Made by a program: the position numbers and the translations under genes. The notes under the pieces were generated by a model that was not told the DNA's origin, did not search any database, and saw only the letters and a list, made by a program, of their open reading frames with translations. A stretch of DNA of 64,000 bases from Entophlyctis helioformis (Eukaryota; Chytridiomycota; Chytridiomycetes; Chytridiales; Chytriomycetaceae): NCBI GenBank assembly GCA_025526915.1, contig JAHLKH010000136.1:1-64000 (forward strand), written 5' to 3'. Shown piece after piece: positions 1 through 53,280 of the stretch; position 1 is the first letter of the stretch, and each line of letters begins with the position of its first letter.

Positions 1-2137
1 TGCACTTGCTGTTCTGACTTCCTCAAACAGGTCACTCTGTGTATGCTGCAAATATGCTGCATTTGCAATGACGCGACGCATCACTCTGTTGGCAGATGCA
101 GCAGGCGTGAGCGATAGATATGCCATACAGAACAGTGTTGACTTACGCAGCAAACAACAGAATGAATTGCTTGCACGACCATTGCTGCGTGTCTGGATGT
201 GCCAGCCATTCATCTAGCTGCTCACTGCATCGCATCATGGCATACTTGCTGGACCCATGCTGCAAAAACAATCGTATCTCTTTCCTGCCATACAGTGCCA
301 TTCAGTCATGTCAGTCTCCAGCGACACACACAACAGGCATCAACTGAGCAACCTTTGAATGCGCGACTCTTCAGCTGTGAGTGGTCTTCGCTTGCTGTTG
401 ATGCCTGGCTTGGATGGATTTGGAAACAATCGGACGCCTGATCCGCTCAAGAGATGGGTCAGCTGGATCGGGCAGCTGACCAAGATTGCTTGGTGCAACG
501 TCACTGAGCATCCAGGCATTCAATGTCCTGAGTGCCGTGACAAGCTGCTGTTGTTGGTCTTGTGTCAATGAGGCGACTGCCAGATCCAGAGACGGGACAT
601 CGAGACGGCTGTTGATTGTTGCATCATCCACAGACTGGCATGCGTCTTGCCATGCTTGCAAGGTGGCGCGGGCTACATCGGCTGCTATCTCTGAGACAGC
701 CCAAACATCGCATTAATGGTCTCACATGCCAGCTGCTCATGCAAACATCCAAGGCAGATCCATCCATTCTGCTCACCAGATGTGCTTGCATTTCGGACTT
801 CCTCACACAGGTCATTGTGTGTCTGCTGGAACGTTTTAGCATTGCCAATGACGCGATGAACCACTCTGTCGGCAGATGCAGCAGGCGTGAGTGACAGATA
901 TGCCGTGCATGACAATGTTGACTTACGTGGCAAACAACAGAATGAACTGCTTGCACGACCATTGCTGCGTGTCTGGATGTACCAGCCACTCATCTAGCTG
1001 CTCGCTGCATCGGAGCATGGCATACTTGTTGGGCCCATGCTGCAGTATCAGCTGTATCTCTTCCCTGCCATACAGTGCCATTCAGCCGTGTCAGTTTCCA
1101 GCGACACACACAACAAGCATCGTATGAGCAACCTTTGAATTCGCGATTCGTCCTCTGTGAGTGATCTTCGCTTGCCCGCTCTCCCTGGCTTGGATGGATT
1201 TGGAAACAATCGACGCCTGATCCGCTCAAGAGATGAGCCTGCTGGATCGGGCAGCTGGCCAAGATTCCTTGGTGCAACGTCACTGAGCATCCAGGCATTC
1301 GTCGTCCTGAGTGCCCTGACAAGCTGCTGATGTTGGTCCTGTGTCAACGAGGCGACTGTCAGATCCAGAGATGGAGACAGGCCGAGACGATCCAGTGATC
1401 TGGCTGTTTTGTCCGAAAATGGCATGCTTTGCAGTTGAAGCAAGACATCGTCTGTTGCTGTTGATGATGGCGAGCCTGTGCGTTGCTCGAGTGGCTCGGC
1501 TGTGCGTCTGCGAGTCTGGCGATGCTGATCAGACGATGCAAGCGAATAGCTGCTGTCTGTATCAAGTGGATCAGATGCAACCGATGTGGCCGCTGATGAG
1601 CGAGATCGCTTGGCAAGGCGGCTGGTGTGGACGGCATCTGGTGCGTCTGCATCGACAGCCATGCTGCGCTGTGCCATCAACAGCGGCTGTCCATCATGGC
1701 ATGCCTCGTGCTGCTGGACCATCGACAACGGTGGCTGTGTTGTGCTGCAAGCGGTCAGCCAGACAGCGCAGGCTGGACAGCAGAGGCAGGCCAGAGCGAC
1801 GGGCACACAGACTCACTCGGTGTCTGCACGAGGGGCTGGCTGCTCGGCAGCAACAGCAACAGCCTGGTTGAGGTTCCGGATGGCAGCAGTGTGCTCGTTG
1901 GACACTTCCGCCAGCTCAGTCACATACCGCGACAGGCTATCGTGCTCGTCGCTCAGCTGCCGGTGTGCCTCGGACAGCCGGTCGACCTTGTCGTGCAGTT
2001 GCCGCAGAAGCTCCTGTGATGCATGCAGTGTGAACCAGCCAGCCAGCCACTCTCTGCCACTCCCAGCCACGGCAGCCCGCCGCACTCACCGCCACATCCG
2101 CCAGTGTCGGCTGGCTGCCGTTCCCTCGCGTGCTCAT
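1..2137 (-). CDS. R1: cassette-repeat protein, unrecognised family, truncated by window edge
   Basis: I do not recognise this gene. It reads from an ATG at 2137 with exons 2137-2090, 2013-1817, 1744-1133, 1064-927, 865-777 and 690 onward; every junction is GT-AG and the phases match. Exon 2 encodes a heptad-rich coiled coil (ELLRQLHDKVDRLSEAHRQL and following). Exon 3 starts with a Ser/Arg-rich linker with basic NLS-like patches (AKRSRS, QTRRRT) and runs into the first repeat cassette (SLDLTVASLTQDQ, LPDPAGSSLERIRRRLFP). Exons 4 and 5 complete that cassette (RCSEQLDEWLVHPDTQQWSC, then VVHRVIGNAKTF). Exon 6 opens a second cassette, but one extra base near 432 shifts the frame and gives a stop at about 371. 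Downstream exons continue to position 1 in recognisable form. It is the reverse-oriented relative of R2 at 46 kb. Function unknown; nuclear location is only suggested by the basic patches. Confidence 0.6.
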
Positions 2138-9218: not shown

Positions 9219-9999
9219 GTGCTAGTACTACCAACCTTAGGCATGCCCATGGTCAGAAGAGGATTGCGTCGCATTCTCCAGCCACATGGCAATGCCATAC
9301 TGCTGAGCATCGACCATATCCATCAGATCCTGTTCCTTGGCCTTGACTTTGGAGTGCTTGCACAGATGCTGGATGGCATCGCAAATGCTCCGGTGCTCAA
9401 GTACTTTGACCCGTCGCTGGAAACGCACGTGTACACGGACGCATCCGAGTTTGCCATTGGTGGCTGGATTGGCCAGAAGCATGTCAAGGCGGACGGCACA
9501 GCCAAGATCCATCCGGTCTCGTTCTACTCGCGCAAGCTCAACAATGCGGAACGCAACTACCCGACCCACGAGTGCGAGATGCTGGCGATCGTGGACACTT
9601 GCGACAAGTACCGGCACTACCTGCTCAGCGTGCACTTCACCATCCACACCGACCATGCCTCGCTGCGCTGGATCTCGACGCAGCCCAAGCTGTCGTACTG
9701 CCAGGCTGGCTGGATCATGGAGCTGCAAGAGTTTGATGCTGTGGTCCAGTACATCCAGGGCGGTGAGAACCACCTTGCCGACATGCTGTCGCGCCATGTG
9801 ACTGTTGCTCCGCACTGTGCCCGCTGCCACTCGATGGTGGATGTGTCTGCCCTGACGACGGTCACCTCTGGCATCGCTGCTCACATCCGTCCGCTGCTGG
9901 CGGCCGACCCGTTCCTGCTCAACGTCGCTCGCTGGAAGGCCGATCCTGCTGATGCTGCTGCGCACGAGCGTCAGTTGGCAGCCAAGCTCGAGCTGGTGG
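9219..9999 (+). mobile_element. Ty3/gypsy retrotransposon fragment (RT end, RNase H)
   Basis: One open frame encodes the end of a Ty3/gypsy reverse transcriptase and its RNase H domain. Visible are the connection APVLKYFDPSLETHVYTDAS with the first catalytic Asp, SFYSRKLNNAERNYPTHECE with the catalytic Glu, FTIHTDHASLRWI with the second Asp, and QYIQGGENHLADMLSR typical of the RNase H end. No gag, protease, integrase or LTR is seen nearby, and the RT catalytic core (YxDD) is missing, so this is a truncated dead copy. The frame runs up to, and overlaps in the opposite direction, the stop codon of the RIB3-containing gene at 10001. Confidence 0.85.
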
Positions 10000-10000
10000 C

Positions 10001-10815
10001 TTACAGACCATGCTTCATTCTGTACTGCACGAGATCATGGATCGTGATCATGCGGAGACCAAACTTGTTGGAAAACGCGCGCAGGTCGTCGCGACGCGCC
10101 ATGCGGCCATCGTCCAAGACAATCTCGCAGATGGCGGCAACGGGCCGCTTGCCAGCCAGCCGGCACAGGTCGACGGACGCTTCCGTGTGTCCGACGCGCT
10201 TGAGCACGCCGCCAGGTACGGCGCGCAGCGGGAACACGTGGCCCGGCCGCGAGAACGCAGCGGGGACGGACGACGGGTCGGCCATGGCACGCACGGTCGC
10301 AGCACGGTCGGCCGCTGAGATGCCCGTGGTCGTACCCTGCTTCAAGTCGAGCGAGATGGTGTATGCCGTCTTGAACGAGTCGGTGTTGTTGGGGACCATG
10401 AGCGGGAGTTCGAGGCGGTCGAGGATGTCGCCGGATGCTGGTGCGCAGATGACGCCGCTCGTGTAGCGGATCATGAACGCGGCCTTTTCGGGCGTGAAGT
10501 CCTCGCCGGCAATGATGAGATCGCCCTCGTTCTCGCGGTCCTCGTTGTCCACGACAACAAGGAACTTGCCATTGCCTGGTTGATGCGGTGCCGGCAATGC
10601 ACGCGTGAGTGCCGGCCGTGCAAGAGAGCCGTCAAGCAAGCACAGGCACGGCGAGACTTACGGTAGTCTTCAAGGGCAGACTCGATCGAGTCGAATCCTG
10701 CCTCGGGAGCAATGTGGGTGGTCTGGGATGCCGATCCGTTGGCAACAACGGAAGGAACAGCAGAAGCAGCAGTGGATGCCGCAGGAGCGTTTTCGCGGTC
10801 GTAGTACCTTGACAT
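10001..10815 (-). CDS. RIB3: 3,4-dihydroxy-2-butanone-4-phosphate synthase domain (riboflavin synthesis)
   Basis: This is the C-terminal part of the fused gene and may also be a stand-alone product from the ATG at 10815 (exons 10815-10662 and 10575-10001, 242 residues, near the usual length of fungal Rib3). It converts ribulose 5-phosphate to 3,4-dihydroxy-2-butanone 4-phosphate plus formate, giving the four-carbon unit of riboflavin. Family motifs are intact: VVDNEDRENEGDLI with the acidic Mg2+-binding loop, TSGVICAP, the GHVFPLRA substrate loop, GHTEASVDLCRLAG, and the C-terminal DLRAFSNKFGLRMITIHDLV. The natural C-terminus seems present. The Met at 10815 follows directly on the amidohydrolase frame (NAFQAATMSRYYD), so it may be internal rather than a start. 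Confidence 0.9.
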
Positions 10816-31386: not shown

Positions 31387-31593
31387 TTGAGTGCAAGGTG
31401 GCTGGGATGGCTGGAAGCTGTCTGGATGCTGGCTGGATGCTCGCTGGATGCGCGGTGTGCCAGATCTGGTATTCACACGGCCCAGACATGGCGTGGAAAC
31501 CGTGCCGCAACGGTTGTCAGGGCGATTTATTGACAGTGCAGGCAGACATATTGGTTGGTGGGTTGGGCGGGCGGAGGACGTGGCTGGCGACAC

Positions 31594-32261
31594 TCACTTC
31601 ATCTTCTCGACAATCTCCTCAATGAGCGTGGCCTTGACCATGCCCTTGTTCTTGGTTGACTTCCGCTTGTCGACGCTCTTGTCCGAGGTGCGCATGTCGT
31701 TGGTGACAATGTACGCCTTGCCGACAACGTGGTCGTTGCCAATGACGGCCTTTTTGTCGAGACGGCCAATGAGCGTGCCGACCTTCTTGCCCTCAATGAC
31801 GTGGACGTTGAAGCACTCTTCGCCGTCTGCAGAAGCGCCAGAGGGATGCCAGAAGGGATGCCAGTGGGGATGCCAGGAGGGACGTTGAGAGGGATGCCGA
31901 TGGCGCGATGTGTCGTCGACGTGGTGGTGACATGGCCGGTCGCGTGATGTCGTGTGATCAGGAGGCGCGACCAATGCATGAACGCGGACGATGGCCAGAT
32001 GAGCAAGCGAGAGCAGGCAGGCAGGCAGGCAGGCAGGCAGCACAAACACGAGCGGGTCAGCGACCAGGGCATGGCAGACGGCAGAGATTGGCGCAGGGGC
32101 GAGGGGGGCAACGCACCCTTGAGAGACTTCTTGACGACAACGACCGAGCCAGAGTGCAGCGTCTCCTTCTGGTCCACGGGCACAAAGTCGTCCACTTCCA
32201 CAACCTCGATTTCGGATGGCGGCTGGTTCTGAGCAAGCAGCTGCTGGCCAAGCTTTGACAT
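31594..32261 (-). CDS. A1: small conserved protein, one of an inverted gene pair
   Basis: I do not recognise this protein. Two exons, 32261-32117 and 31826-31594, give 125 residues. Exon 1 encodes an amphipathic start (MSKLGQQLLAQNQPPS), an acidic strand region (EIEVVEVDDFVPV) and HSGSVVVVKKSLK. Exon 2 continues with ECFNVHVIEGKKVGTLIGRL, DKKAVIGNDHVVGKAYIV and a Lys-rich C-terminal helix. The alternation of short beta strands suggests a small barrel; the VGTLIGRL...AV part loosely recalls HIRAN-type barrels, but this is weak. The gene lies 55 bp downstream of the CLC gene on the same strand. Its partner A2 (41604-42254, +) is nearly identical in the middle, including the intron, but not at the first 25 codons or near the C-terminus. 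Confidence 0.8.
32016..32042. repeat. (GCAG)n run in the A1 intron
   Basis: About five to six copies of GCAG lie in the intron of A1. A related (TGCC)n run lies in the A2 intron near 41828-41850. The flanking part of this intron (31830-31930) also holds a 15-bp minisatellite of GGGATGCC-type units, with more copies than in A2. Confidence 0.8.
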
Positions 32262-41603: not shown

Positions 41604-42254
41604 ATGATCTCCCAACTCGGCCAACAGCTCCTCGCCCAGTCGCTCCCCCCGTCCGAAATCGAGGTCATTGAGATTGACGACTTTGTGCCCGTGGACCAGA
41701 AGGAGACGCTGCACTCTGGCTCGGTCGTTGTCGTCAAGAAGTCTCTCAAGGGTGCGTTGCCCCCTGCGCCCCTGCGCCAATCTCTGCCGTCTGCCATGCC
41801 CTGGTCGCTGACCCGCTCGTGTTTGTGCCTGCCTGCCTGCCTGCTTGCCTGTGCCTGCTCTCGCTTGCTCATCTGGCCATCGTCCGCGTTCATGCATTGG
41901 TCGCGCCTCCTGATCACACGACATCACGCGACCGGCCATGTCACCACCACGTCGACAACACATCGCGCCATCGGCATCCCTCTCAACGTCCCTCCTGGCA
42001 TCCCTCCTGGCGCTTCTGCAGACGGCGAAGAGTGCTTCAACGTCCACGTCATTGAGGGCAAGAAGGTCGGCACGCTCATTGGCCGTCTCGATAAAAAGGC
42101 CGTCATTGGCAACGACCACGTTGTCGGCAAGGCGTACATTGTCACCAACGACATGCGCACCTCGGACAAGAGCGTCGACAAGCGGAAGTCGACCAAGCAC
42201 AAGGGCATGGTCAAGGCCACGCTCCTCACTGAGATTGTTGAGAAGATGAAGTGA
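41604..42254 (+). CDS. A2: small conserved protein, inverted partner of A1
   Basis: Exons 41604-41751 and 42022-42254 encode 126 residues starting MISQLGQQLLAQSLPPS. The first 24 codons differ from A1 at many synonymous positions, yet from GACGACTTTG (41676) through the rest of exon 1, the intron and most of exon 2 the two copies are nearly identical. Near the end they differ again (TKHKGMVKATLLTEIV here, TKNKGMVKATLIEEIV in A1). A likely recent gene-conversion tract of about 0.5 kb explains this. The reading frame is intact and the strand pattern (SGSVVVVKKSLK, KKVGTLIGRL, GKAYIV) suggests a small beta-rich fold. Function unknown. It faces UTP13 tail to tail, 108 bp apart. Confidence 0.82.
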   Translation: MISQLGQQLLAQSLPPSEIEVIEIDDFVPVDQKETLHSGSVVVVKKSLKGALPPAPLRQSLPSAMPWSLTRSCLCLPACLLACACSRLLIWPSSAFMHWSRLLITRHHATGHVTTTSTTHRAIGIPLNVPPGIPPGASADGEECFNVHVIEGKKVGTLIGRLDKKAVIGNDHVVGKAYIVTNDMRTSDKSVDKRKSTKHKGMVKATLLTEIVEKMK

Positions 42255-42362
42255 GCCACGTCTCGGTCTCGTCCCTCCAACCCAGCCCAACCACAACCGC
42301 CCCACCACAACCAATCTGTCTGCCTGCGCAATGGCTCTGTCAATAAATCCGTCTGGGTCCCT

Positions 42363-46003: not shown

Positions 46004-49000
46004 ATGAGCGCACAAGACAGCGGCGGCCAGCCGACACTGGCAGATATGGCGGTGAGTGCGGCGGGCTGCCGTGGCTGGCTGCCGTGGCTGGCTGGCTGGC
46101 TCACACTGCATGCACCACAGGAGCTGCTGCGGCAACCGCGCCACACGGCCGGCCACCGATACGAGGCACACCGGCAGCCGAGCGGCGAGCCGGCACAAGC
46201 ACCCAGCGAGCCCGCTGCAGCCAACAGACGGCCCACGCAGACGGCCACAGGTGCTGTTGCGCAGCCAGCCCCTCGTGCAGACACCGAGTGAGTCTGCGTG
46301 TCCGTCGCTCTGGCCTGCCTCTGCTGTCCAGCCTGCGCTGTCTGGCTGACCGCTTGCAGCACAACACAGTCGCCGTTGTCGATGATCCAGCAGCACGAGG
46401 CATGCCATGATGGACAGCCGTTGTGGATGGCACAGCGCAGCATGGCTGTCGATGCAGACGCACCAGATGCCGTCCACACCGGCCACGTTGCCAAGCGATC
46501 TCGCTCATCAGCGGCCACATCGGTCGCATCTGACCTATCTGATGCAGACAGCAGCCTTTCGCTTGCATCGCCGGATCACCATCGCCAGACTCGCAGACGC
46601 ACAGCCGAGCCACTCGAGCAACGCACAGGCTCGCCATCATCAACAGCAACAGACGATGTCTTGCTTCAACTGCAAAGCATGCCGTTGCCGGACAAAACAG
46701 CCAGATCACTGGATCGTCTCGGCCTGTCTCCATCTCTGGACTCTCAATCGCCTCATTGACACAAGACCAACAACAGCAACTTATCACGGCACTCAAGACA
46801 TCGAATGCCGGGATGCTCAGAGAGGTTGCGCCAAAGCATATTGGTCAGCTGCCCGATCCAGCTGGCTCATCTCTTGAGCGGATCAAGCGTCGACTGTTTC
46901 CAAATGTAAACAAGCACGCATATCGACACGCGAAGATCACTCACAGAGGAAGAGTCGCGCATTCAAAGGTTGCTCGTTTGATGATCGTTGTGTGTGTGGC
47001 TGGAAACTGACATGACTGAATGACACTGTATGGCAGGAAAGAGATACGATGTTTTTGCAGCATGGGCCCAACAAGTATGCCATGCTCCGATGCAGCGAGC
47101 AGCTAGATGAGTGGCTGGTACATCCAGACACGCAGCAATGGTCGTGCAAGCAAGTCGTTCTGTTGTTCGCCTCGTAAGTCAACATTGTCATGCACGGCAT
47201 ATCTATCGCTCACGCCTGCTGCATCTGCCAACAGAGTGGTTCATCGCATCCTTGCCAGTGCTGTAAACATTCGAAAGACACAGAGCGACCTGTTTGAGGA
47301 AGTCCGAAATGCAAGTGCATCTGGTAAGCAGGATGGATGGATCTACTTTGGATGTTTGCATGAGCAGCTGGAATGTGAGACCATTAATGCGATGATTGGG
47401 CTGTCTCAGAGATAACAGCCGATGTAGTTCTCGCCACCTCGCAAGCATGGCAAGACGCATGCCAGTCTGTGGATGATGCAACAATCAACAGCCGGCTCGA
47501 TGTCCCGTCTCTGGATCTGGCAGTCGCCTCGTTGACTCAAGACCAACAACAGCAGCTTGTCACGGCACTCAAGACTTCGAAAACCTGGATCCTCAGAGAG
47601 GTTGCGCCAAAGCATATTGGTCAGCTGCCCGATCCAGCTGGCTCATCTCTTGAGCGGATCAAGCGTCGACTGTTTCCAAATGTAAACAAGCCACGCATAT
47701 CGGACACGCGAAGATCACTCACAGAGGAAGAGTCGCGCATTCAAAGGTTGCTCGTTTGATGATCGTCGTGCGTGTCGCTGGAAACTGACACGGCTGAATG
47801 GCACTGTATGGCAGGGAAGAGATACAGCTGATACTGCAGTATGGGCCCAACAAGTATACCATGCTCCGATGCAGCGAGAAGTTGGATGAATGGCTGGTAC
47901 ATCCAGACACGCAGCAATGGTCGTGCAAGCAAGTCGTTCTGTTGTTCGCCTCGTAAGTCAACATTGTCATGCACGGCATATCTATCGCTCACGCCTGCTG
48001 CATCTGCCAACAGAGTGGTTCATCGCATCCTTGCCAGTGCTGTAAACATTCGAAAGACACAGAGCGACCTGTTTGAGGAAGTCCGAAATGCAAGTGCATC
48101 TGGTAAGCAGGATGGATGGATCTGCCTTGGATGTTTGCATGAGCAGCTGGAATGTGAGACCATTAATGCGATGTCTGGGCTGTCTCAGAGAGAGCAGCCG
48201 ATGTAGCCCGCGCCACCTCGCAAGCATGGCAAGACGCATGCCAGTCTGTGGATGATGCGACAATCAACAGCCAGCTCGATGTCCCGTCTCTGGATCTGGC
48301 AGTCGCCTCGTTGACTCAAGACCAACAACAGCAGCTTGTCACGGCACTCAGGACTTCGAAAACCTGGATCCTCAGAGAGGTTGCGCCAAAGCATATTGGT
48401 CAGCTGCCCGATCCAGCTGGCTCATCTCTTGAGCGGATCAAGCGTCGACTGTTTCCAAATGTAAACAAGCCACGCATATCGGACACGCGAAGATCACTCA
48501 CAGAGGAAGAGTCGCGCATTCAAAGGTTGCTCGTTTGATGATCGTCGTGCGTGTCGCTGGAAACTGACACGGCTGAATGGCACTGTATGGCAGGGAAGAG
48601 ATACAGCTGATACTGCAGTATGGGCCCAACAAGTATACCATGCTCCGATGCAGCGAGAAGTTGGATGAATGGCTGGTACATCCAGACACGCAGCAATGGT
48701 CGTGCAAGCAAGTCGTTCTGTTGTTCGCCTCGTAAGTCAACATTGTCATGCACGGCATATCTATCGCTCACGCCTGCTGCATCTGCCAACAGAGTGGTGC
48801 GTCGCATCAGTGACAGTGCTGTAAACATTCGAAAGACACAGAGCGACCTGTTTGAGGAAGTCAGAACAGCAAGCACATTTGGTGAGCTGGATGGATGGAT
48901 CTACTTTGGATGTTTGCATGAACAGCTGGAATGTGAGACCATTAATGCGATGGTTGGGCTGTCTCAGAGATAACAGCCGATGTAGTTCTCGCCACCTCGC

Positions 49001-51411
49001 AAGCATGGCAAGACGCATGCCAGTCTGTGGATGATGCAACAATCAGCAGCCGGCTCGATGTCCCGTCTCTGGATCTGGCAGTCGCCTCGTTGGCACAAAA
49101 CCAACAACAGCAGCTTGTCACGGCACTCAGGACTTCGAATGCCGGGATGCTCAGAGAGGTTGCGCCAAAGCATATTTGTCACCTACCTGATCCAGCAGGC
49201 TCATCTCTTGAGCGGATCAAGCGTCGACTGTTTCCAAATGTAAACAAGCCACGCACAAAGGAACGTCGACCACTCACAGAGGAAGAGTCGCGCATTCAAA
49301 GGTTGCTCATTCGATGATCGTCGTGCGTGTCGCTGGAAACTGACACGGCTGAATGGCACTGTATGGCAGGGATGAGATACAGCTGATATTGCAGCATGGG
49401 CCCAACAAGTATGCCATGATGCGATGCAGTGAGAAGTTGGATGAATGGATGGTACATCCAGACACGCAGCAATGGTCGTGCAAGCAAGTCGTTCTGTTGT
49501 TCGCCTCGTAAGTCAACATTGTCATGCACGGCATACCTGAAACTCACGCCTGCTGCATCTGCCGACAGAGTGGTGTGCCGCGTCATTGGCAATTCTGCAG
49601 CATTTCAGCATACACAGTCAACTGTTTGAGGAAGTCCGAAATGCAACCGCATCTGGTAAGCAGAATGGATGGATCTACTTTGGATGTTTGCATGAGCAGC
49701 TGGAATGTGAGACCATTAATGCGATGTCTGGGCTGTCTCAGAGAGGGCAGCCGATGTAGCCCGCGCCACCTCGCAAGCATGGCAAGACGCATGCCAGTCT
49801 GTGGATGATGCAACAATCAACAGCCGGCTCGATGTCCCGTCTCTGGATCTGGCAGTCGCCTCGTTGGCACAAAACCAACAACAGCAGCTTGTCACGGCAC
49901 TCAAGACTTCGAATACATGGATGCTCAGAGAGGTTGCGCTGAGGAACATTGGTCAGCTGCCCGATCCAGCAAGCTCATCTCTTGAGCGGATCAAGCGTCG
50001 ATTGTTTCCAAATCCATCCAAGCCAGGCTCAAAGGAACGTCGACCACTCACAGAGGAAGAGACGCGCATTCAAAGGTTGCCCTTTCGATGGCTGTTGTGT
50101 GTGTGGCTGGAAACTGACATGACTGAATGACACTGTATGGCAGGGAAGAGATACAGCTGATATTGCGGTATGGGCCCAACAAGTATGCCATGCTCCGATG
50201 CAGCGAGCAGCTAGATGAGTGGCTGGCACATCCAGACACGCAGCAATGGTCGTGCAAGCAAGTCGTTCTGTTGTTCGCCTCGTAAGTCAACATTGTCATG
50301 CACGGCATACCTGAAACTCACGCCTGCTGCATTTGCCAACAGAGTGGTTCATCGCGTCATTACAAATGCTGCAGCGTTCCAGCATACATACAATGACCTG
50401 TTTGAGGAAGTCCGAAATGCAACCTCATCTGGTGAGCAGAATGGATGGATCTACTTTGGATGTTTGCATGAACAGCTGGAATGTGAGACCATTAATGCGA
50501 TGTCTGGGCTGTCTCAGAGATAACAGCCGATGTAGCCCGCGCCACCTCGCAAGCATGGCAAGACGCATGCCAGTCTGTGGATGATGCAACAATCAACAGC
50601 CGGCTCGATGTCCCGTCTCTGGATCTGGCAGTCGCCTCGTTGGCACAAAACCAACAACAGCAGCTTGTCACGGCACTCAAGACTTCGAATACATGGATGC
50701 TCAGAGAGGTTGCGCTGAGGAACATTGGTCAGCTGCCCGATCCAGCAGGCTCATCTCTTGAGCGGATCAAGCGTCGATTGTTTCCAAATCCATCCAAGCC
50801 AGGCTCAAAGGAACGTCGACCACTCACAGAGGAAGAGACGCGCATTCAAAGGTTGCCCTTTCGATGGCTGTTGTGTGTGTGGCTGGAAACTGACACGGCT
50901 GAATGGCACTGTATGGCAGGGAAGAGATACAGCTGATATTGCGGTATGGGTCCAGCATATATGCCATGATGCGATGCAGCGAGCAGCTGGATGAATGGAT
51001 GGCACATCCAGACGCGCAGCAATGGTCATGCAAGCAAGTCGTTCTGTTGTTCGCCTCGTAAGTCAACATGGTCATGCACGGCATATCTATCGCTCACGCC
51101 TGCTGCATTTGCCAACAGAGTGGTTCATCGCGTCATTACAAATGCTGCAACATTTCAGCATACACAGAGCGACCTGTTTGAGGAAGTCCGAAATGCAAGG
51201 GCATCTGGTGAGCTGGATGGATGGATCTGCCTTGGATTCTGTGAAACTGACATGGTGGCAAGCAGCAGGAAACATGGCGGCAATGAATGAGCGGCAGAGT
51301 GCACGCTGAAGCACCAGCAATCAGGACGAGGTCACTGGCGATGATGTGGACATGGACGAAGCATGGAACGACCACTCAGACGAGCAAGATGACGATGACG
51401 AGTATTTATGA
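46004..51411 (+). CDS. R2: cassette-repeat gene, six tandem three-exon cassettes, partly frame-broken
   Basis: I do not recognise this gene. It begins like R1: exon 46004-46051 (MSAQDSGGQPTLADMA), exon 46121-46287, exon from 46360. Exon 2 has lost the coiled coil of R1 and is Pro/Ala rich. Six cassettes follow; in the clean ones the exons are 337, 138 and 89 nt (e.g. 48189-48525, 48594-48731, 48793-48881), exactly 188 codons, entered and left in phase 1. Cassette motifs: ADVARATSQAWQDACQSVDD, SLDLAVASLTQDQQQQLVTA, LPDPAGSSLERIKRRLFP, LTEEESRIQR, then RCSEKLDEWLVHPDTQQWSC and KQVVLLFAS, then VVHR and DLFEEVRNA. Frame breaks occur in cassette 1 (near 46740, 46917, 46930, 47055) and cassette 4 (near 49617). 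A closing open frame at 51322-51411 encodes a very acidic tail (DEQDDDDEYL). Whether one long mRNA or several products are made is unknown. Confidence 0.55.
46640..51207 (+). repeat. Tandem array of about 779-bp exon-intron cassettes
   Basis: Cassette starts, taken at the acceptor CTGTCTCAG, are followed by exons at 47410, 48189, 48968, 49742 and 50518, so the period is 779, 779, 774 and 776 bp. A first copy is joined to the N-terminal module from about 46640. Cassettes 2 and 3 are almost identical base for base, introns included, while 5 and 6 form a second closely related pair. This shows recent duplication or conversion within the array. The same unit, in reverse orientation, fills 1-1300. 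Confidence 0.92.
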
Positions 51412-51994
51412 GCTGCAGATGAATGAATGAGCATATGCCGTCAGCCAAAGGCGTGCCTCGCTCTTGTCCGATCGTCGCTGCTCAAGGCATCAAGAGCCAT
51501 CAACCATGGCAGGGACAGCAACAAGGTTGAGATGCGGGTCCACTGAATCGCCTGAAAGGGCCATGCATCGTTGTGGCCATCAGCGCCACTGGCAAGCACC
51601 AGAACCAACACGTATGTCGTCGCTTCCTGCAGCTCACAAGAGCAAACAAGACAACAAGACCCAGCCGTCACACCGTCTCTGGTGTGCACAATCTGGCTTG
51701 ATGCCCTGTTGCTCTCATGACCATCCACCGCCCTCAGTGGCTCATCTAGCGTTCCGTTCTGTCCAACCCATACCGATGACGACGACTCGATTGACGGTGC
51801 TGGCATTGGTGATATCACATTGGTCTTGGATGTGGTTTCACAGGTGAATTCAAGTGATATGGCAGGTTCTTGGGCGTGACATCGTCATATGACAAAAGGC
51901 CGTGCCATATAAAAGCAGCGGCTGGCCCCTGCCCACAACCCACAGCCCACAACCCACAACAACCTACAACAAACGACAACCGACAAACGACAGC
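51412..51994. promoter_or_regulatory. Degenerate coding-like stretch and TATA box of the second LRR gene
   Basis: From 51445 to about 51870 the + strand reads as broken coding-like sequence (KACLALVRSSLLKASRAINH, later DDDDSIDGAGIGDITLVLDV) with several stops; I cannot assign it. A TATA box (CATATAAAAG) lies at 51906-51915, followed by an ACAACCCACAACC-type repeat to 51970, 80-90 bp before the ATG at 51995. Confidence 0.5.
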
Positions 51995-53280
51995 ATGGCC
52001 GCACTTGTCGAAGGCTTTATTGGTGGGATGCTTGGCAGGCCAGCACTTGCCAATGTTGACATCCCCGAGGGAGCCGTCCAGGCCGATTTCAAAGGCGCTG
52101 TGGCCGAAGGCGCCGTCAAGGCCCCCGTTACTGTCAACACGGGCGGCCTACTTGTCGTTGCCGCCGTCCTCATCATGAGTCTGAACCAGCTCTTCTTGAT
52201 GATCTTTGCGGTCGTTGCAACGTCGGGCATTGTTCCTGCACTGATCCTGCTGGCGTTGCTCGGCGGCGGTGGGTACTACGCTTGGATGGCTATCCGGCCG
52301 ACTGTGGTGGCCCAGTTGGATGCTGCCATGATCGACGTCCCGCCAGAGATTCGCAGGCTGCTCGGGATGGATGCTCCTGTGGCTGGCAGGGCATCAGCAT
52401 CGAGCGTCAAACAGATATGCGAGGGCAACGGCACCAAGAAGCAGTTGGACGACGCTGCGCAGGCACTCAAGGATGCGTCAGCAAGCGTCACGAGCGGCGG
52501 CGACCATGTGCCGCCTGCAGCCGATGCCTGCAGCCCTGACAGCCACAACAAGATCGCAGACACGCCGGCCCCCTCGACCGACCTTGCCCTCCTGCTGGCC
52601 ATCTTTCCCTCGCTCGCCGGCGTCACAAAGACAAGTGCGCACGTGCCAGGCATCACGTTTGACGCCGACCGTCATATCACGGCCATCAACCTCGCTTTCC
52701 GCGGTCTGTCGGGCCTGCTCCATGCCGACCTAGGCAAGCTCACTCGCCTCGAGTCGCTCGACCTCCATGGCAACCGCCTCACGGGCAGCATCCCCAAGTC
52801 GATCGGCCGTCTCGTCCATCTGCGCCATCTCAACCTGAGCGAGAACGCGCTCGACGGCCTGCTGCCTGCCGCCGCTTTTGGCAACCTGACCAACCTCGTC
52901 ACGCTCAACCTCGCTCTCAACAACCTGACGGGCGATATCCCGCCATCCCTCGCATCGCTGACACATCTCGAAGAGCTGTGAGTCGCCGCACTCCCGCCCG
53001 CTGTGCACCACGTTCCATGTCCATGCCTGTGTTTGGTGCTCACACTCGGCCCGTCTGACACAGGGATCTGTCATACAACCGGCTGACAGGCACGCTCGAC
53101 GAGTCGCTGGCCAGTCTCACCTGCCTCAAGAGTCTCGACGTCAGCCACAACCAGCTGCACGGCCCCGTGCCGTCCGGTTTCGCCAACCTCGACCAGCTGT
53201 CGTACCTCGGCCTGCGGTTCAACCACTCGATCGACAGGGTGCCTGCCGTCCTCGCTTGCAACACCCGTCTGGTCATGTAA
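51995..53280 (+). CDS. Leucine-rich repeat protein with N-terminal membrane hairpin
   Basis: Exon 1 is 51995-52977 and exon 2 starts at 53064. The product starts MAALVEGFIGGMLGRPALAN, then has two adjacent hydrophobic segments (GGLLVVAAVLIMSLNQLFLM; GIVPALILLALLGGGGYYAW) that could form a membrane hairpin. A linker of about 130 residues leads to LRRs of the LDLHGNRLTGSIPKSIGRL type: about four in exon 1 and three in exon 2. The splice is phase 2 within a Leu codon, exactly as in the LRR gene at 7-9 kb. Exon 2 can end at the TAA at 53278-53280, or a GTAAGG donor at 53276 can join to TGATGAGGACCC after CTCCAG (about 53378), adding a short acidic end. No signal peptide or kinase domain is seen. 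Role unknown; LRRs of this kind bind proteins or peptides. Confidence 0.78.

Follow-up and report, generated by a model that had tools for sequence, protein, structure and literature searches.

The array that we call R2, at positions 46004–51411 of the window (the whole 64,000-nucleotide stretch analysed, from the start of contig C136 of Entophlyctis helioformis, Chytridiomycota), consists of six head-to-tail units spaced 774–779 nt apart and belongs to a gene family that, judged by sequence comparison, is real, coding and cassette-built. By this comparison the cassettes lie head-to-tail, have exon lengths and phases in common, are under purifying selection and, where paralogs have no introns, are joined in a single reading frame. 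We think it probable that R2 is a damaged member of this cassette-grown E. helioformis family.

R2 reads on the plus strand. It begins with an ATG-bearing exon A (MSAQDSGGQPTLADMA; 46004–46051, 48 nt, phase 0 at its end), followed by exon B (46121–46287, 167 nt), which is Pro/Ala-rich like that of other long arrays, and exon C (46360–46968), in which a basic, Ser-rich N-terminal region is fused to a truncated unit 1 E1. Unit 1 is not a full cassette: the N-terminal exon takes the place of the first part of its E1, a frame shift falls within the rest of that exon, and E2 (47037–47173) has 137 nt, followed by an 89-nt E3 (47235–47323). The description of clean copies as exons of 337, 138 and 89 nt totalling exactly 188 codons fits unit 2 (47410–48102; E1 47410–47746, E2 47815–47952, E3 48014–48102) and unit 3 (48189–48881; E1 48189–48525, E2 48594–48731, E3 48793–48881), two of the five full cassettes. 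Unit 5 (49742–50431; E1 49742–50075, E2 50144–50281, E3 50343–50431) and unit 6 (50518–51207; E1 50518–50851, E2 50920–51057, E3 51119–51207) depart from it, with an E1 of 334 nt and 187 codons, as does unit 4 (48968–49655; E1 48968–49301, E2 49370–49507, E3 49569–49655), whose 87-nt E3 leaves its 559 nt out of frame. The cassette exons of R2 are 331–337, 138 and 89 nt long with intron phases 1-2-2-1, and with phase 1 at both ends of a unit, copying it keeps the frame. The near identity reported for the pairs 2–3 and 5–6 is confirmed, at 98.0% and 94.7% of the unit body against 85–89% for other pairs among units 2–6.

Introns 1, 2 and 3 of the R2 units measure 68, 61 and 86 nt, none divisible by three, and their GT–AG removal restores the frame in units 2, 3, 5 and 6. 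Intron 1 contains an in-frame stop in units 2–5 and none in unit 6. The end of the gene had been placed at 51411, which does not hold for R2 as assembled: the terminal intron is missing from the tail region (51208–51411), and reading through, as public model P0002 does, meets a stop at 51288–51290. Other members have at this position a splice of the GTACGAG..CTGCAG type leading into an acidic C-terminus, the end of which matches R2 51400–51411.

The window holds a second family member, R1 (1–2137, minus strand), which has two visible cassettes, keeps a coiled-coil-like exon and is truncated at base 1, where the contig ends. An open reading frame at 9219–10466 (plus strand) presumably encodes part of an LTR-retroelement pol, having an RNase H-like look by eye, and one just downstream of R2 (51902–52981, plus strand) has what we take, again by eye, to be a leucine-rich-repeat-like end. 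The interval from R2 to this frame recurs after family genes on C4, C1 and C116, a segmental duplication. At 31593–32261 and 41607–42255 there are inverted repeats, in pairs of 249, 222 and 160 nt (96, 89 and 98% complementary) with arms ~9–10 kb apart.

The proposal of repeated, symmetric three-exon cassettes able to grow in frame is borne out and extends to a family spread over the genome. An E1 query of the 29.6-Mb genome gave 61 matches on 18 contigs; two further queries added C411, C321, C283, C477, C81 and C26, then C37, C226 and C341, some of them weakly, for 27 contigs with weak matches included. The 18 stretches of the first search and nine more from the wider queries were compared. 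Thirteen close members (L031–L040, L044, R1 and R2) hold 50 units, with 1–9 cassettes each: nine in L031, seven in L032 and in L033, six in L034 and in R2, one in L037, and two in each of L035, L036, L038, L039, L040, L044 and R1, the last two members being cut by contig ends. Their gene plan is exon A (MS..PTLADVA), exon B, an exon C running into the first E1, the cassettes, a short terminal intron and an acidic tail. Twelve members have a 5' end; exon A measures 48 nt in 11 of them and 47 nt in L031. Among the 48 units listed of the 50, E2 has 138 nt in 41 and E3 has 89 nt in 45, so that exon lengths are largely constant, with phases 1-2-2-1 and the same phase at both ends; exceptions to this frame-keeping layout are R2 unit 4 and some units elsewhere in the family. 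Under the splice rules applied, two of the 12 members that have a 5' end read open throughout, the C168 gene (7 cassettes, 24 exons, 1538 aa) and the C255 gene (2 cassettes, 9 exons, 616 aa). The other ten comprise R1, cut by the contig end, L034, which exon finding did not settle, and members with at least one frame lesion. Six public hypothetical proteins belong to the family (BC831DRAFT_55453, 55540, 276453, 27687, 134882 and 78950); these models are short (210–492 aa), and none contains a full array.

An N-terminal coiled-coil module had been suggested to accompany the cassettes. A coiled-coil-like exon B, the coiled coil being assigned by eye, occurs at 8 loci, namely all six genes for which the full count is 1–2 cassettes, R1 and, as a weak match, the paralog L043, but finds no match at any of the five arrays with 6–9 units. 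A single origin could explain this split between short and long arrays, which is therefore not an independent correlation. At the other end of the protein, the C-terminal motif YI(P/Q)LKF(E/D)DxE(F/Y) is common to the divergent L046 (2381–2635, minus strand) and the tails of the close members L038–L040.

Strong comparative support from paralogs points to splicing across cassettes in the main family. The divergent L041 (on C10) has exons of 138, 89, 334 and 138 nt as in the main family and also a single 561-nt exon equivalent to E2, E3 and E1 without introns. In L042 (C16), E2 and E3 are fused in 227 nt, followed by 138-nt E2 exons; L049 (C26) has E1, E2 and E3 in one open frame, and L050 (C81) carries two copies, one intronless and the other with an intron only at the E1/E2 place. 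C81 and C26 are related to the main family by query matches (E 3.5e-4 and 7.3e-4 with L041, 6.2e-6 and 7.6e-4 with E2) and by the same predicted helix order. The claim that a third intron joins each cassette to the next finds support in these intron-lacking paralogs, and in four of the six public models (P0001, P0002, P0003 and P0005) E3 is spliced to the following E1 at the acceptor of the first-pass annotation. The accompanying argument from an out-of-frame TAA stands in so far as splicing is needed here; it does not require that exact acceptor, because a second in-frame one lies 9 nt downstream (AGATAACAG|CC) and gives 185 codons. Across 37 listed junctions, AG is present at the original site in 32, absent in four (CTCGG or TTCGG) and not displayed in one, and is present at the +9 site in 34. 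On sequence, the choice of intron-3 acceptor is ambiguous between the two sites. No gap is needed to align the spliced join NASAS|ERAADV with the unspliced SASALEAISN stretch of L041, a fit that favours the original acceptor.

Purifying selection supports coding. Median dN/dS between arrays, with frame-shifted codons set aside by the alignment, is 0.46 for the last part of E1, 0.26 for E2 and 0.64 for E3, and no in-frame stop occurs in 49 units examined of the 50, the same codons set aside. In these 49 units pairwise π at the three codon positions is 0.152/0.143/0.236 in the last 240 nt of E1, 0.158/0.066/0.181 in E2 and 0.244/0.215/0.272 in E3. Residue entropy is highest in E3 as well (1.17 bits versus 0.71 and 0.49, 39 of 50 units). 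In the close members, uncorrected divergence is 14–16% in introns 1 and 2, lower than at synonymous sites in the exons next to them (dS 0.34–0.43). A site test for positive selection, covering about 150 sites in 39 of 50 units and ignoring recombination, gave sites 134, 16 and 124 p values of 0.001–0.008, none of which passes Bonferroni correction. Variable residues show no periodicity that would place them on one helix face (permutation p 0.44–0.88), and intron 3, considered as an unusually homogenised zone, equals intron 2 on the same 36 units.

The view that the array is evolving fast applies to part of the family. In the unit tree, units cluster by array in R2 (support 80/95), L031 (71/96) and L040 (100/96), each of which needs one change, but not in L032 and L033, which need six and four; L034 needs two. 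Cassettes of L032 and L033 interleave, so within-array homogenisation is not universal, and the units of L038 and L039 pair by position. The tree pattern thus indicates local array turnover, exchange between arrays and the copying of some genes whole. The flanks agree with this reading: a core reaching at most from about −209 to about +157 is common to most members (the exceptions are L034 and, upstream, also L035), and beyond it several classes of flank are common to subsets of members.

The absence of a known domain holds as far as it was tested, and the domain is unnamed by any library searched. A structure prediction, which had been proposed for the cassette, gives a confident helical unit (AF2, pLDDT 89.2, pTM 0.74), and the model of a divergent single-cassette protein (pLDDT 89.0, pTM 0.84) has the identical helix order. 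The cassette model has no significant structural match in the PDB or among viral structure models, which does not make the fold new, and profile search led us to accept no Pfam family for the cassettes. For alignment A1, whose members have 2–3 cassettes each, the Pfam hits were rejected. The best was Mtr2 (9.1e-10), with others from 4.4e-5 up; each appears in only one of four members, and Mtr2 reaches 12.4 bits against a cut-off of 23.7 on P0003, which has one full cassette and part of another. We therefore read these as weak matches summed over repeats. Protein searches, two of them among the best 8000 candidates, returned matches only from E. helioformis or none; no relative was confirmed in bacterial and archaeal genome contigs, none was found in plasmids, and a search of titles and abstracts found no paper treating the family. 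A link to telomeres was considered and set aside: TTAGGG arrays were found, and four contigs among the matches listed do not carry the family. The stretch RRPLTEEE...YGPNKY visually resembles a Myb/SANT motif, and with the basic stretch this could make each cassette a diverged Myb/SANT-like DNA-binding domain. That identity is highly improbable and we reject it. Neither cassettes nor paralogs have a Pfam Myb/SANT match above the curated cut-off, and AF2 gives LTEEES...DEW as one continuous helix through the YG-like site, so that a superficial TEEE...YG likeness is paired with a different predicted helix layout.

What, then, is R2 itself? We find no support for reading this array as one working gene. 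Units 1 and 4 carry frame lesions and the terminal intron is missing, so that R2 as assembled is probably not such a gene, and it is probably damaged unless the short lesions are assembly errors. Chances seem about evenly balanced that it is a relic pseudogene, homogenised by recombination and making no full product while the family codes elsewhere, a reading that agrees with the account of the family preferred below. It is supported by the lesions and the lost intron, and by public models that break off or begin anew near the lesions; on the other hand units 2, 3, 5 and 6 are intact, and the lesions are short and have similar counterparts in most members, so assembly error is possible. Short frame-breaking changes of exon length occur in L031, L033, L035–L039, L044, R1 and R2, mostly of 1–2 nt and larger in L044, and could be decay or assembly indels, which are indistinguishable here. 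The public annotation splits the array into two models, BC831DRAFT_55453 and _55540, and two shorter working genes, P0001 (units 1–4) and P0002 (units 5–6), are accordingly conceivable but unlikely: P0001 fuses units 2 and 3, with the E1 of the former and the E3 of the latter, and uses a shifted frame for part of unit 1, and inspection finds no second 5' end inside the arrays.

For the family, cassette growth remains the preferred account. An ancestral single-domain gene and its introns would have given rise to the phase 1-1 three-exon cassette. Unequal exchange among near-identical units would then change the cassette number, at no cost to the frame since both ends of a unit are in phase 1, and whole genes would spread via segmental duplication and recombination. 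Dispersal could alternatively reflect a mobile element, with the family as its cargo or protein. About 97–209 nt or more before the ATG are common to 10 of the 12 members in which a 5' end is present, as are about 94–157 nt or more after the stop to 10 of 11 examined, and these common flanks have sharp limits in otherwise different surroundings. By eye, however, no terminal inverted repeat lies at the limits, and several pairs have 0.6–2 kb of common flank, as fits segmental duplication; we regard a mobile element as very unlikely.

Under cassette growth, the structure model suggests that each cassette would add a helical domain and that the intron-3 junction would fall inside a helix that connects neighbouring domains; a long array would then form a chain of connected domains. 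Such a protein might tentatively be a multivalent scaffold. L032 has basic clusters in its N-terminal region, a charge of +6 in the E1 stretch and −17 in the tail; the basic clusters, basic E1 stretch and acidic tail of the family would suit nuclear or chromatin binding, and in short-array genes the coiled-coil-like N-terminus may replace the avidity that repeat number gives to long arrays. Protein and structure searches found no homolog of known function or structural match to back the proposed function. A more specific idea, that a chain of new-fold domains uses its variable cassette residues, above all those of E3, to set binding, strikes us as quite improbable; if true, cassettes would be gained and lost singly, and array length and composition would encode binding specificity.

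The proposed mode of growth is of an already known kind. Nebulin grew by internal duplication of multi-exon blocks of fixed pattern, four exons per seven short domains, and there, as in the family, a repeated multi-exon block equals a fixed protein block with exon borders inside structural units (PMC1553488). The family differs in having three exons per one ~188-residue unit of unrecognised fold, and in being fungal, with intron-poor paralogs in the same genome. It also offers a confidently predicted helical domain for which the searches found no described family. Intron-poor single-cassette copies, genes with 1–3 cassettes and arrays of 6–9 are stages of domain-repeat growth that coexist in one fungal genome, which makes the origin and expansion of multi-exon cassettes testable.
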